Source of the DNA: Terebella lapidaria
Lineage: Eukaryota > Annelida > Polychaeta > Terebellida > Terebellidae
Length of the DNA stretch: 64,000 bases
Reading direction: 5' to 3'
Assembly (NCBI GenBank): GCA_949152475.1
Contig: OX424555.1
Location: forward strand, 18,308,868 to 18,372,867
The position numbers were made by a program, and so were the translations under genes. Of this stretch, positions 9,593 through 16,072 are shown piece by piece. The notes below the pieces were generated by a model. The model had not been told where the DNA came from. It was given only the letters and a program-made list of their open reading frames with translations, and did no database searches. Each line of letters begins with the position of its first letter. The first letter of the stretch is position 1.

Positions 9593-9749
9593 TACAGTAT
9601 CTGTATAAAAACTACTTATTCTACGCTGTTAAATAACTCATCCAGAAAGGTTCAATCTAGGCCTATACATATGAGACCCCGGCAGTCACCTCGAGGGTGT
9701 TTCCAGGCTCCAGCGAACATACCCCCGATACATATATGGCAGTGTCTAT

Positions 9750-9815
9750 TAGTCCATGAGCCCATCCAAAATTTACTACCATGAAAGGGCACCAAACTTT
9801 GATTGTATATATGAT
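9750..9815. repeat. Left terminal inverted repeat of the 6.3-kb element
   Basis: The 13-bp tip matches the right end perfectly in inverted orientation. After a length-variable linker, a second block of about 25 bp (centred on ACCATGAAAGGGCACCA) matches with two or three differences. Confidence 0.75.
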
Positions 9816-10516
9816 CCTCAACATGACAAAAAATCATGATGGACTTCTCAGAAGAGTAGCTTAAGTTTTCTACAAACCTTTGAACATAATGGTATATTAT
9901 GCTATAGCGAATGACAAAGTGAGCGATTTGAATGCACATTACAACATATTGTATTTAAACAAGGCATAGCGAAATCAATATGTTTTGTTTCATGAAATAT
10001 TATGGTGTTAGTTAAGTTATGACTGATTAATATATAGATGTTTTCACAATTTTGTTTGCAAATTCTAGAATTTCACAGCAGTCTAGTCTTGGATTGACGG
10101 AGCTACACTTTTGGCCACTGCGGATATCCGAAAATAATTTCAATATTTCAATGTGTATGAAAAGTGGTATATATTTTTTATACAGGATGATAATTAAGAA
10201 TAAGATTTGCGTATATGAAGCCATATTGTTCAAACACACGATGATTTGCAACAAGCGGCTATCAACATCGTACTTCACATTCGACGACGCAGGGTATGGT
10301 GATCTTCCTTACTCATTTATATATAAGTCGTAGTCCACATATTAAGATTATTTAAATAATTATTTAAGTTAATTGCTAATCACTTCTCCTGCCATTGAGA
10401 ATACCTGTGATGTCTGCAGCCCCATCCAATGACAATAAATACAGTGTATGCTTTTTTTCTTCTGTATGTTCTTAAACAACACATGGCTTGTCTATATCAT
10501 TCCAGGTGAGTAACTG

Positions 10517-13084
10517 ATGGATGTAACCCTGAAACCAGTGAAACGTTGTCGGATTGAGGAGAGAACATGTATTATATGTGGCAATAAGGCACCAATTGAT
10601 GAACTTACTAAACCAAAGGATCCAGTATCCATTGAAGCACTCAAGAATGCCGCCAAAGTACACAATTTTGATGCCATCCTTCAGATGTCCGAAATCGAGT
10701 ATGATACAAAACTCTGGTATCACAGGAACTGTCGTTCAGCTTTCACTCACAAGAAAACCCTTGCCAGTCTGGAACACAAAAATGAACCAGACGAAGTGGA
10801 AGAATCACGGAAATCATGCCGAAGTAGACCGAGTTCATCTCGTGTTATGGATCCTATTTGCATTTTCTGTGAAAAGAAGTCGAAGTATACAACACGATCC
10901 AAAACCCGTGAACCACTCATGCAGTCTTTGGAGCTCCGCTCTGATGAGAAGGTTCGACAAGCAGCCATTGATAAATTCGACGACAAAATTCTTGCTGTAA
11001 CATCACAAAATATAGTCGCAGTTGAAGCACACTACCATAAGACCTGTTATCACCTGTTACCACGAGATCCAAAACCGAAATGTCCTACTGTTAATGTGAC
11101 GCCTGAAGACGAAGCCTACCAGATTGCTGAACAAGAAGCATACAGAATGTTATTCAGACACATAAGGGAGACACTATTCAGTGAACCACAGGCAGTTCGA
11201 ATGACTGAACTTACAGAAAAACTTTCAGAATTCATGGGAACATTGGGCTTCGATAACATAAAGCAACATACAAAAAATCATATCCGTCGAAAGCTAGAAG
11301 CAGAATTCTGTGATTCCCTACATTTCAGCAATGAGGCAAATGGCAGGGTCCTGGTATATCCCGACAACCTTACACTGGTTAAAGTCCTCAGGGAAAATGT
11401 CTTCCTCAAGGATAGAGTACAAGAATTTGAGTCCACAAATGACATCAGACATAACATTAACCAATCTGCGGCCCATATCAGAAATGAAATCAAGTCCATG
11501 TCAAAACCCTCATGGCCACCCAAACCAGATGAACTGAATGATGATTACCTGAAGTTACCAGATAGTTTGGAAATATTCCTCAAGCAAGTCATCATTGGCG
11601 ATGCAGAAGATGGTACACCACGAATACAAAGGGTTGCACAATCTCTCGGGGAAGATATTGTATATGCTGTCAGCAGAGGGTCAACTATTCCTGCCAAACA
11701 TATACTGTTGCCATGGGGAATAAAATCTCTGACAGGGAATGTTGAAGTTATCAAAGTCTTGAACAGACTTGGGCACAGCATGTCCTATTCCAAGTTAGAG
11801 GAGTTAGATACTGCTCTCTGTCTTCAGAAACAAGAATGTGATGAAGGTATCTCCTTACCATCCAGCATTCACCCCTGTGTTCCTACAGCTTTGGCATTCG
11901 ATAATATTGATCGATTGGAGAAAACCCTGAGTGGTGGTGGAACATCCCACAGGGTTAATGGGATCATTGTCCAACCACAAGTGTCCACAGCTGCACCACC
12001 TCCAAAGGAGACTCCGGTGGCCAAGAAGAAGCTTCGAAGTGTACCTCCTGTGGCGCTGGATATCCCTGAGTATGTTGCAGGGTCAAGAGAGAGTCCACCA
12101 TCAACTAAACCTCTTGAAATCAATGAAGATCAAGAACTGGAATCCGCACATGCCAAAAACATCATCTGGGCATTGGCAAGGATGAGTGATGCAACCAAAG
12201 ATTGTGATACAACTGAGCAATTGGTATCATCATGGACAGGGTTCAATATCATGACACGTGATAACATAAGAGTATGCAAAGACAACATAGGATATCTACC
12301 AACCATAAATGCACCGGCAACGAAGTTGTCAACTGTACATGAGATCCTCAACCATGTCATGAGAGTCATGGATGCTCTGGATGTTGATGAAATAGTATGC
12401 GTGTTTGATCAGGCTCTGTACGCAAAGGCTGCTGAAGTCGTATGGAAACATCAGATGAGGTTCAAACCAATTGTGTTGAGAATGGGCACCTTCCATATGT
12501 TGATGAATCTTCTCTCCATCATTGGGAAACGGTTTGGGTCTGCAGGACTTCGCGACATTGCTGTGGAGTGTAACATCATTGCAGAAGGATCCATCGATGG
12601 AGTACTTGCAGGACGCAGTTACAACAGGGCCATTCGCCTGTGCAAGCTAGTGTATGAAGCCCTGTTGCGATTGGCATGGAAGCAATTTTATGTCTGGCTT
12701 GAAGCTAACCATGCAGAAGATGTTTGTCAACTCACTTCAAGCACCAATACCATCACAGAATTCAAGAACAACATTTCCAGTGATGGACTTGAACTGGCTT
12801 CTCGAAATGATTCTGTTTCTGTGGTGCTCCTGAGGTTTGATGAGTTCCTAACTCATCTGCATACCAGTCATGGTGAATTAGCAGCATTCTGGTTATCGTT
12901 CGTGGATCTTGTCGACACAATGTTAGGTTTGATCAGAGCATCCAGGGAAGGGAACTGGCTACTCCACCTGGCCTGCGTGAAGTCCTACATTCCATGGTGT
13001 TTCGCCTACGACAAACAAAACTACGCACGGTATACATCTGTCTACTACAGCCAAATGACTCGGCTCGCTGAAACGCACCCAGAG
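10517..13084 (+). CDS. Exon 1: two CCHC zinc modules and probable transposase core
   Basis: An intact 856-codon frame. Two N-terminal modules share the layout CxxC ... HxxxC: C18, C21, H69, C72 and C115, C118, H174, C177. These are probably DNA- or protein-binding zinc folds. After a charged linker, a conserved region from about residue 555 to the exon end includes VFDQALYAKA (D631), GTFHMLMNLL (H660), GLRDIAVE (D680, E684) and NWLLHLACVKSYIPW. Acidic residues in this order would suit an RNase-H-like transposase fold, but I cannot assign the catalytic set by eye. The frame runs 11 codons past the donor before a stop, as expected of an intron read-through. The shorter frames on both strands here are shadows. 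Confidence 0.75.
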
Positions 13085-13196
13085 GTATATTATCTAAATA
13101 TATATAAATGTGTGTGATATTGGTTTCCTTTCTCATTTTGACTTTAGCAAATTACATGCAGTCATCTCTGAATATTTAAGCGTTTACTTCATTTAG

Positions 13197-13317
13197 GTAC
13201 ACCAACACATGCTGCAAGGCGGCTTCTCTGTACAGACAAGTGACCACAATACATTCGGCAGAATTCCAGTTGATCAAACAGTTGACGAAACTGTCAACAG
13301 AAACACACAGACTGCAG
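13197..13317 (+). CDS. Exon 2 of the element gene
   Basis: Forty codons plus one base between TTTAG and GTATAA. It encodes a stretch with GGFSVQ and IPVDQTVDETVNRNTQTAG, which joins in phase to GTRGFSLNPGAVSRYY in exon 3. Related animal proteins have the same run without a break, which supports the splice model. The Asp-Gln..Glu pattern may belong to the transposase core. Confidence 0.7.
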
Positions 13318-13432
13318 GTATAAGTTTGTGTGAAATACATCTCGTATGCATTTTTGTCATGAGTATTGTGTATCCTAACCAGTTCAGCATGTTCAGTTGT
13401 CCGACCGATTCATCCCAATTGTTATATTTCAG

Positions 13433-14143
13433 GTGGGACCAGAGGTTTTAGCCTCAATCCTGGTGCCGTCAGTCGGTATTACATAACAGCAGAGTACCGT
13501 ACTTCATGCCTGAAACAACTGCAAAAAAATGACTCAAGTCAGCAACCCCACCAGCCACCCAGATCTTTCAAGGACGCGAATTCACAAAGATGAGCTCGCT
13601 GTAGAAGCCCTGGTGGAACTCATGGAAGAGAACTGGTCAGATCCATTCCATCATCCTTCCGAGTTGATGTGTTTGTCAACAGGGGTAATGGCATCGCAGG
13701 ACATCTCTACCGATTTGCTCACTGCTTCAGAAAAGGGAACCAAAGCATACATTGAGTTTCAAGAGAAGCGTCTTGACAAACAGGAAACATCTTTCTTTGA
13801 TCCATTGTCCAAAACGAACCTGAAGACATTCGAAAACAAGAAAAAGTCATCAAGGAGAACAACCAACAAAGAGATGGTCCTGAAAAGTGACCAGAAATTG
13901 TTTGGACACATGCTTCTCGTGGCATCCAGCAGACAGCTCAATATGAAGGAAGTTCTGCAGCATCCCCTTGGACCTATACCCTGGTGTCTTGCAAATGATG
14001 ACGGAAGCCTTAAGAAAACCAACAAATCAACATTAGCAAGGAAGTTGGAAGGCAACTCATCGACAGCTGAAACTATTCCACAACCTTCAGCCTGCCTTAT
14101 CGATGGCATGAAATGCTTTACAAGATGCAAGCTGACGACATGA
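13433..14143 (+). CDS. Exon 3, first part: linker and nuclease motif I, broken frame
   Basis: The exon opens in the frame continuing exon 2 (GTRGFSLNPGAV...LKQLQKN). It changes frame at the A7 run 13523-13529, after which the family sequence resumes as HPDLSRTRIHKDELAVEAL. It continues to the first nuclease motif, CLIDGM, with the Asp codon at 14102-14104. This corresponds to the first catalytic Asp of FEN1-type enzymes. A second shift at 14110-14116 moves the true continuation (LYKMQADDMTFGEFSDQLL) into another frame, so the formal frame ends at the TGA 14141-14143. Confidence 0.65.
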
Positions 14144-14146
14144 CCT

Positions 14147-15307
14147 TTGGAGAATTTTCAGACCAACTACTTGCTTCTGTTCTCAGGCAGCATAAGGGTT
14201 GACTTGGTATTTGATGTATATCGTCAACTCTCCATCAAACAGACTGAGAGAACACGGAGGGGGTCAGAAGGAGGAATCCGTTTCACCAACATTGCTCCAG
14301 GTCACAAAATCCAACAGTGGAGACATCTGCTAATGTGTGGAGCAAGCAAGATGAAACTGATTAGTTTCATTTTGGAACAATGGCAACAGCCAAAATGCAG
14401 ACAACAGCTGGCCGAAAGAACGGTTTACTTCACAAGTGGGGAAAAGGTTGTCAAACCCAGTCGTACCTGTGTATCAGATGTGATAGAGTTGTCCAGCACT
14501 CACGAAGAGGCAGATACCCGTCTTCTGCTTCACGCTGAACATGCTTCGGTCGACAACTCTGCAGTTGTAATTGTAGCAGAGGACACTGATGTATTCATAT
14601 TATGCCTGGCCTTCCAAAGCAAAATGAAATGTCCCATGTATATCAAATGTGGGTCTGCAACACGCATGCGGTACATTGATGTAAAAAAGGTGGCTGATGC
14701 CATAGGTAAAAATGTATGTGCCTCTTTGATAGGACTACATGCATACACCGGATGTGACAGTGTGAGCGCATTCAGTGGCCGAGGCAAGTTGTCAGCACTG
14801 AAGCTACTACAGCACAATACCCAATTCCAAGAGGTTTTCCAGCAACTAGGTCAGTGGACACTTTCAGAGACCCTTCTATCTAATCTGGAGATGTTCACCT
14901 GCCGTCTGTACGCAGCTCAAACCAACATCACAGAGGTCAATGAGATGCAATTTGAGTTATTCCGAATGAAGAATGGAAACGTAGACTCTTCACAGTTGCT
15001 GCCATGCAAGGACACTCTGCAGCTGCATGCTGTGAGGGCAAATTATCAAGCAGCCATTTGGCAGAGGTCCCTGATCAGCACCCCCGACATTCCATCTCCA
15101 GTTGAGAGCAAGGGCTGGATCCTGGTTGAAGAGAGTGGGCTTGCGGTCAACTGGATGACAGGTCCAATGGCCCCAGATGCCGTCCTGGGCTTCCTTTTTT
15201 GCAAATGCAAAAAAAGCTGTCAATTGCCGTCCTGTCAGTGCCGGGTGTATGGAAGCTTGCACGTTACAAACCTGCGACAACATGAAAGACGAAGCTGCCA
15301 ACAGTGA
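14147..15307 (+). CDS. Exon 3, second part: FEN1/XPG-like nuclease domain and CXC-like tail
   Basis: The true sequence enters this frame only after about 14183-14198, so the apparent start is not a real initiation site. The remaining four acidic motifs of the FEN1/XPG fold follow in order: VFDVYR with R-rich follow-up (Asp 14213-14215), HEEADTRLLLHA (14501-14536), AEDTDVFIL (acidic codons 14579-14590) and TGCDSVSAFSGRGK (Asp 14756-14758). The last is followed by a Gly-rich helix-hairpin-like run. Spacings between the last three are close to those of FEN1. The C-terminus has CKCKKSC..CQC, a shortened match to tesmin/TSO1-type CXC motifs, and then ends SCQQ. The 5'-flap nuclease activity is inferred from family knowledge. 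Confidence 0.75.
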   Translation: MENFQTNYLLLFSGSIRVDLVFDVYRQLSIKQTERTRRGSEGGIRFTNIAPGHKIQQWRHLLMCGASKMKLISFILEQWQQPKCRQQLAERTVYFTSGEKVVKPSRTCVSDVIELSSTHEEADTRLLLHAEHASVDNSAVVIVAEDTDVFILCLAFQSKMKCPMYIKCGSATRMRYIDVKKVADAIGKNVCASLIGLHAYTGCDSVSAFSGRGKLSALKLLQHNTQFQEVFQQLGQWTLSETLLSNLEMFTCRLYAAQTNITEVNEMQFELFRMKNGNVDSSQLLPCKDTLQLHAVRANYQAAIWQRSLISTPDIPSPVESKGWILVEESGLAVNWMTGPMAPDAVLGFLFCKCKKSCQLPSCQCRVYGSLHVTNLRQHERRSCQQ

Positions 15308-15343
15308 TCCTGTTGAATCAGACAGTTCAGATAGTGATCAGGA

Positions 15344-15595
15344 ATAGATAGATAAATGGATGGATGGATGGATTGATTAGAGGATGGATGAATGGATGGA
15401 TTAGGGGATGGATGGATGGTAGAATGGATGGATGGATGATTTCTTGTGATAACATGCTGCACACAATGATCGTGTTGAATTAAATTCGGATAGTGATCAG
15501 GAGTAGATGGATGGATGGATGGATGGATGGATGAATGGATGGAGGATGGATGAATGGATGGATGGATACATTGATGAATGGATAGATGTATGAAA
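15344..15595 (+). repeat. GGAT/GATG minisatellite in the element 3' region
   Basis: Imperfect runs of GGATGGATGGAT interrupted by short unique pieces. The stretch GATAGTGATCAGGA occurs just before each of the two main runs (about 15331 and 15489), showing a local duplication of the 3' end of the gene. Confidence 0.8.
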
Positions 15596-15652
15596 TAACG
15601 AAATAAGTGTTCAGAAGAAATAACATGTACATGTAAACATCAATACAATCGA

Positions 15653-15658
15653 AATAAA
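15653..15658 (+). promoter_or_regulatory. Candidate poly(A) signal of the element gene
   Basis: AATAAA lies about 345 bp after the stop codon and still inside the element, before the right TIR. It is the first canonical hexamer downstream of the gene. Confidence 0.4.
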
Positions 15659-15989
15659 ACTCGTTACTTGAAATGTGGTGTTATCTTATTTGCTACGGTT
15701 TCTGCAGTGTACAAATTGACTTCAATTTACCAAAAAAATATGATCCAAGACAAAATCCAGTATATATTTCACTTATTGTGACATTTAAGTAAGCTGTATA
15801 TTTCATTATGATACAGCAATAGTGATAAAAACAGTTTGCTGTTAGAGTATACAAGTTGCAGGTTGAATCACGTTCATCTGAAGCGCTTCATATTTGTTTA
15901 CGACCCCACTCTCCCGTTTTAGGTTGTACTGAAGTTAAGCTACTCTCCCGAAGTGTCCATCATGCTGTTTCCGGTAGTAGATACATATA

Positions 15990-16069
15990 TCTAACAAAAT
16001 CAAGTCAAAAAGTCTGGTGCCCTCTCATGGTAGCAATTTCCAAAAAATGGTCATTCGGCTCATGGACTA
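15990..16069. repeat. Right terminal inverted repeat of the 6.3-kb element
   Basis: Inverted partner of 9750-9815. It is longer than the left one because of an extra A/T-rich linker (about 16037-16050). The outermost base is A16069, followed by TAT and then duplicated host sequence (TGATTGC..GGGGCATG). Confidence 0.75.
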
Positions 16070-16072
16070 TAT

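Follow-up and report, generated by a model that had tools for sequence, protein, structure and literature searches.

The window, a 64,000-nucleotide stretch of the polychaete Terebella lapidaria (GenBank assembly GCA_949152475.1, contig OX424555.1, positions 18,308,868 to 18,372,867 of the forward strand), contains an old, broken copy of a DNA transposon with terminal inverted repeats (TIRs; Table 1). The element is probably a degraded cut-and-paste copy of the AcademX kind, whose single protein would have combined a DDE-like core with a FEN-like nuclease module that, under the mechanism proposed below, acts on 5′ strands. AcademX is a kind already named, to which the window family would add a member.

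The original prediction, made from this DNA alone, described a TIR transposon with a perfect 13-bp tip, a further conserved TIR block and TAT on either side, and all of this was borne out, with two weaker inner blocks in place of one. Other copies with the same ends, whose absence had been proposed as grounds for doubt, proved to be numerous. Across the assembly (761.6 Mb, 438 contigs), the tip TAGTCCATGAGCC was found 217 times in forward and 215 times in reverse orientation (432 in all), against 6 and 4 (10 in all) for a reversed-pattern control. Among 100 tip places listed for contig C1 and most of C2, 66 fell by hand count into 33 facing pairs (tips facing each other, <10 kb), 2 to 9 kb apart. 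Target-site duplications (TSDs) were checked for the window's pair and the next 20 pairs in list order, with exact tips in all; the flanking 3 bp were identical in 17 of 21 end pairs (2.6 expected by re-pairing). A common flank in 4 of the 20 pairs represents one insertion inside another repeat (three matching, one not), and matches at independent sites number about 15 of 18. One unoccupied copy of this repeated insertion site, on another contig, has a length that fits a 3-bp and not a 5-bp duplication, the site being a TA run. The TSD sequences were varied (CAT, GTA, ACA, AGA, CTT, AAC, TGC and others). At 29 other left-end loci, approximately 200 to 480 bp were held in common with the window's left end at 74 to 85%; pieces of the window protein had no match there within the 3.1 kb examined at each locus, and these loci look like non-coding relatives, or coding ones with the gene beyond the examined stretch.

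Both ends were resolved for three coding elements besides the window copy, and on this sequence evidence the terminal motif TAGTCCAWGAGCC and 3-bp duplications accompany the gene across subfamilies, the DDE regions of which are ∼30% identical. Locus L061, the nearest coding relative with both enzyme-like parts, carries the tip (two mismatches in the right tip) and the TSD CTA, and L128 (8.46 kb) has the tip at both ends, is flanked by the TSD ATA and contains the DDE-like core as well as the nuclease. A block similar to the second TIR block (TACCAT..GGGCACCAAA) is present in L061 and, in a weaker version, in L128. The element around L063 on contig C6, from a distant subfamily, has the tip TAGTCCAAGAGCC (three mismatches between left and right tips), the TSD TGC and a 371-bp TIR at 98%. 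Five relatives that were read have no introns and intact open frames of 1527 to 1610 codons. L063 and L121 (contig C7) are near-identical: over 1664 bp the left parts are 99.7% identical, an agreement that ends at the tip with different flanks beyond it, and the subfamily has thus spread recently. The C7 copy has a shorter reading frame (994 codons), and its right end was not found within the stretch examined. Coding copies with long open frames in other subfamilies, L036/L037 (C8 and C11, 99.8% identical over 3507 bp) and L045/L046 (C14 and C1, 99.5% over 4029 bp), show a near-identity that may likewise be taken as a sign of recent spread or duplication. Such near-identical copies at different sites point to recent spread of some subfamilies.

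The single spliced gene of the original prediction was recovered as three exons bounded by GT-AG sites (placed by eye), though its nuclease, described as complete, is not intact in this copy. The five acidic motifs are present in order but do not lie in one open frame: an in-frame TGA (14141–14143) falls between LIDGM and VFDVYR, the frame opening exon 3 (13363–13593) differs from that of LIDGM (13514–14143), and VFDVYR, EEAD, EDTD and GCDS stand together in the frame stretch 14144–15307. By eye, the bases between LIDGM and VFDVYR encode family-like protein in another frame. The nuclease is also not the sole enzyme-like part of the protein, the DDE-like core in exon 1 having been missed in the original prediction.

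To align the nuclease, 18 of 30 loci (L031–L060) were combined with the window copy into 19 rows, including four row pairs >90% identical; the omitted loci were L031, which is the window copy, L037, L039, L044, L047, L048 and L051 (near copies or stop-bearing), and L034, L035, L050, L055 and L056 (broken, short or resembling rows already included). Retention of the acidic residues is apparent from this alignment (D72 in 11/12 rows, D113 in 16/16, E211, D213, D236 and D294 in 19/19, D238 in 18/19). When a nuclease profile (22 rows, 21 copies) was searched against 177,635 PDB sequences, five EXO1 sequences ranked first (E = 5.4e-4 to 0.032) and ApoA-I followed (E = 0.18); an earlier profile of 19 rows had matched EXO1 alone (E = 0.043–0.085). 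The predicted FEN1-type nuclease is thus supported by the family profile's top PDB match. In the EXO1 alignment, D-x-Y falls on D78 and GCD on D225, in the right order; each aligned stretch is weak by itself (i-Evalue 96 and 0.083). The second motif is followed by conserved basic residues (K in 15/16 rows, R in 14/16) that are seven apart, as are EXO1 K85 and R92, the basic residues at that place; the HMM alignment sets them one residue later, on K86 and R93. Comparison by hhalign with FEN1 from two archaea and the same assembly gave a probability of 60.6 (0.2 for a DDE alignment control), and the 19-row alignment gave 49.1 with a set of fewer FEN1 rows and 41.4 with a further alignment (DDE controls 0.1 and 0.2). 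The FEN1-like motif spacing that had been noted holds for the last three motifs (E–D 25 in L032 versus 21 in an archaeal FEN1, L126; D–D 56 versus 50) but not for the gap between the second motif (D) and the third (E), which is 98 versus 58. Judged by mean identity over five full-length proteins, the nuclease (36.7%) is conserved to the same degree as the DDE region (36.3%). Amino-acid change lies far below silent change between families (window versus L032, 0.275 versus 0.728 per site, with silent change near saturation), and dN/dS exceeds 1 in two close pairs (L036/L037 and L066/L116), each on very few changes. Among 55 listed DDE matches (two copies counted as two matches each), at least 37 have a nuclease match, among those listed, ≤8 kb downstream. 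Matches of the window fragment to NCBIfam DNA polymerase I models (E = 8.5e-4 and 1.2e-3) could point to the 5′ nuclease domain of that polymerase, but only 1 of 22 rows matched (E = 0.033). PHROGs gave four weak matches, in one row each (best E = 0.04).

The DDE-like core was aligned over 22 of the 55 listed matches, hand-chosen with the window included (three row pairs >90% identical), and shows a putative catalytic D, D, E/D triad in which the two aspartates are invariant and the third acid is kept in 20 of 22 rows. Similarity to Pfam DUF6589 covers this core in 13 of the 22 rows at E up to 0.1 (7.8e-8, above cut-off, in L064); DUF6589 is described as a family of unknown function, and a literature search found no mention of it in the mostly open papers covered. 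Relatives share a protein order of two C2HC zinc modules, DDE-like core, nuclease and then a CXC-like or acidic tail. The zinc modules and CXC-like tail of the original prediction are both upheld: the two modules are conserved across seven aligned sequences, the first being degenerate in some relatives, and Pfam TCR matched the tail in 3 of the 19 nuclease rows at E up to 1 (best 2.4e-5), with no match in the degraded window copy. The CXC-like tail occurs in several subfamilies, that of the window copy among them, and an acidic tail takes its place in some relatives.

AcademX elements encode a nuclease of the XPG type beside the transposase. They are placed as a lineage of the Academ superfamily in work associated with Repbase and with Kojima in 2020. 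According to the passages available from PMC10045372, AcademX elements have TSDs of 3 or 4 bp and AcademH elements of 9 or 10 bp, a difference linked there to their encoded helicase and nuclease; Academ elements have amplified in bivalves, as reported in PMC10294476. As far as these passages describe it, AcademX resembles the window family in being a TIR DNA transposon with an encoded nuclease and no helicase, and the 3-bp TSDs fall within its range. Duplication length and nuclease together thus fit AcademX and agree with the earlier placement of the element nearest to Academ. AcademH, a lineage of the same superfamily, differs in those passages by its helicase and 9–10 bp TSDs, neither of which was seen in the window family; when six relatives and three pieces of the window copy were scanned with Pfam, no helicase model matched at E up to 1. 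The CXC tail, an E-to-N subfamily and the conserved basic residues of the nuclease are candidate differences from AcademX. With the FEN1/EXO1/XPG family the nuclease shares the ordered acidic motifs and GCD followed by a G-x-G-K turn, and it too has basic residues after the second motif, though aligned one residue off; it differs in being embedded in a transposase of ∼1550 amino acids, in the longer gap and in escaping recognition by Pfam XPG models.

In cut-and-paste transposition the strand that does not get joined has to be cut as well, which known families achieve in different ways (hairpins, double cutting or a partner nuclease). In the mechanism we propose, the zinc modules and tail would bind the TIRs or chromatin, and the DDE core would free the 3′ ends and join them 3 bp apart in the target, giving the 3-bp duplication. 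The 5′ strand would fall to the FEN-like module, which would cut the non-transferred strand at excision or else, once joining is done, take off 5′ flanks or flaps. The sequences themselves show the ends, the 3-bp duplication, the association of gene and ends and the conservation of the nuclease residues, whereas we infer the chemistry of the DDE core and the point at which the nuclease comes in; a role of the nuclease somewhere in 5′-strand processing is likely, if by no great measure. More tentatively, and with an expectation well below even, one polypeptide may hold two active nucleases, its DDE core cutting and joining the 3′ strands while the FEN1-like module makes an obligatory 5′-strand cut. 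The same idea is found in Tn7, where the DDE enzyme TnsB serves the 3′ ends and a separate nuclease, TnsA, the 5′ ends; TnsA, a protein in its own right, is a nuclease of the restriction type, and no homology is claimed.

Several observations weigh against the interpretation as a transposase joined to a FEN1-type nuclease. None of the Pfam XPG models (XPG_N/XPG_I) matched at E up to 1; the relationship is therefore a remote one, and the module is named FEN1/EXO1-type by profile resemblance and not as a member of Pfam XPG. Profile searches placing the acidic motifs outside the PIN/FEN1 fold had been proposed as a second ground for doubt; by sequence profiles the outcome was divided, with Pfam XPG silent and the PDB search setting the motifs on EXO1. 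The sole above-cut-off Pfam match of the window fragment was ATP-grasp_3, an identity rejected as isolated (1 of 19 nuclease rows), and single-sequence structure models (pLDDT 34 for the nuclease, and 39) were worthless for either fold. Of the 55 listed DDE matches, 18 lack a listed nuclease partner, although in 3 of these all or most of the nuclease is in fact there, as seen on reading L066 and L128 and, for the C7 copy, from a DNA match of 99.9% with L063. For the core, none of the Pfam families that are named as DDE transposases gave a match, and its profile found chance-like PDB matches only (E = 0.32 and 0.59). L063 and L121 have Asn in place of E683 and an acidic residue at column 679, four positions before it; because that subfamily spread recently, E683 is not taken as proven catalytic, and the third acid is uncertain unless the Asn subfamily moves with another copy's enzyme. 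Resemblance to AcademX, moreover, was judged on duplication length, nuclease and helicase as the available passages describe them.

How far the nuclease reaches into transposition can be read in other ways. It might be a repair helper only, as the original prediction had it, trimming 5′ flaps during filling of the 3-bp gaps after DDE insertion, with excision by the DDE core alone. In favour of this, 5′ flaps and gaps are what FEN1 and EXO1 work on, and the FEN1-type acids are retained; yet the genome holds host FEN1-/XPG-type exons that could make such a helper redundant, and in five full-length relatives the module is nevertheless as conserved as the DDE core. We regard a pure helper as possible but on the whole doubtful, with the same weight as obligatory 5′ cutting, and the latter is the more novel proposal because the module has been kept and conserved despite those host exons. 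Conversely, catalysis could rest with the nuclease alone, leaving the DDE-like region a role in structure or binding, as the Asn in a recently spread subfamily, the lack of a Pfam DDE match and the description of DUF6589 would allow. Short TSDs are typical of DDE enzymes, and FEN-type enzymes are not known to join strands. D461, D464, D630 and G-x-F-H are without exception in 20 to 22 rows, and the acidic residue at column 679 in L063/L121 lies one helical turn off, if the region is a helix; this reading therefore seems improbable.

The remaining alternatives concern the identity of the element itself. PIF/Harbinger elements likewise give 3-bp TSDs (PMC2213677), which would accommodate the window element in that or another 3-bp-TSD superfamily; but the TSDs here are varied, no Harbinger-type match came from the Pfam scans of six relatives and three pieces of the window copy, and the available passages of PMC10045372 name a nuclease as characteristic of AcademX; we consider a placement outside Academ very unlikely. 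That a host repair gene happens to lie between unrelated inverted repeats might be suggested by the low copy number of the window copy, the best other genomic nuclease match of which is only 58% identical. Three further coding elements contradict this: their interiors differ in sequence, yet each ends in the same terminal motif and is flanked by a 3-bp TSD of its own. The reading can be given almost no credence.

No experimental work on the nuclease was recognised in the literature, as judged by titles, abstract beginnings and some passages of mostly open papers. An AcademX-kind transposase with a FEN-like module is of interest in that a family which is abundant in one genome, has intact frames there and shows signs of having spread recently would carry a repair-type 5′ nuclease fused to its transposase and equally conserved, and this fusion and equal conservation make the 5′-strand question directly testable in a single purified protein. 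Were both nucleases active, the protein would represent a eukaryotic single-protein counterpart of Tn7 TnsA/TnsB, excision would be free of hairpins, and AcademX would owe to the nuclease the short 3-bp outcome that sets it apart from helicase-bearing AcademH.

Table 1. Features of the element, in window positions (strand relative to the window).
Feature	Position	Strand	Remarks
Whole element, TIR tip to TIR tip	9750..16069	+	6320 bp
Left target-site duplication TAT	9747..9749	.	
Left TIR tip TAGTCCATGAGCC	9750..9762	+	13 nt, 100% complementary to 16057–16069
Second left TIR block	9770..9800	+	partner 16009–16039; 31 nt, 87%
Third left TIR block	9829..9875	+	partner 15924–15970; 47 nt, 77%
Exon 1: zinc modules and DDE-like core	10520..13084	+	open frame 10514–13117; end by GT-AG inspection
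Zinc module 1, C-x2-C ... H-x2-C	10568..10732	+	first C, H and last C invariant, 7 sequences
Zinc module 2, C-x2-C ... H-x2-C	10859..11047	+	all four residues invariant, 7 sequences
DNID motif, proposed first catalytic Asp (D461 or D464)	11900..11911	+	20/20 rows aligned there
Proposed second catalytic Asp D630 (FDQ)	12407..12409	+	22/22 rows
G-x-F-H between second D and third acid (G656, F658, H659)	12485..12496	+	each 22/22
Proposed third acid E683	12566..12568	+	20/22 rows
Exon 2	13197..13317	+	GT-AG introns on either side, by inspection
Exon 3: frame-broken nuclease and cysteine-rich tail	13433..15307	+	
FEN1/EXO1-type acidic motifs LIDGM, VFDVYR, EEAD, EDTD, GCDS	14096..14761	+	in-frame TGA inside; LIDGM 14096–14110, VFDVYR with D at 14213, EEAD 14504–14515, EDTD 14579–14590, GCDS 14750–14761
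CXC-like cysteine-rich tail	15200..15307	+	last part departs from relatives' pattern in window copy
ATGG/GATG microsatellite, degenerate	15347..15592	+	just 3′ of the gene's stop codon, within the element
Right TIR tip	16057..16069	-	inverted-repeat comparison
Right target-site duplication TAT	16070..16072	.	

Relatives elsewhere were sought in viral contigs (35 pattern matches) and in bacterial and archaeal genome contigs (6 pattern matches), and none was confirmed. Besides the FEN1 exons on the chromosome-size contig C11, FEN1-type exons occur on the small contigs C436 (L122) and C403 (L123), which may be non-host contigs in the assembly. Nuclease-exon matches were also seen at an exact spacing of 4884 bp on C15 (20969724–20980547, three units) and C1 (35405647–35411586, two units). 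In the one interval read there is an array of ∼80-bp repeat units, and the terminal motif is not well matched; a TIR element in these units was rejected, as the interval gave only three poor terminal-motif matches (≤3 mismatches), and tandem amplification looks a likelier origin of the 4884-bp units than transposition.

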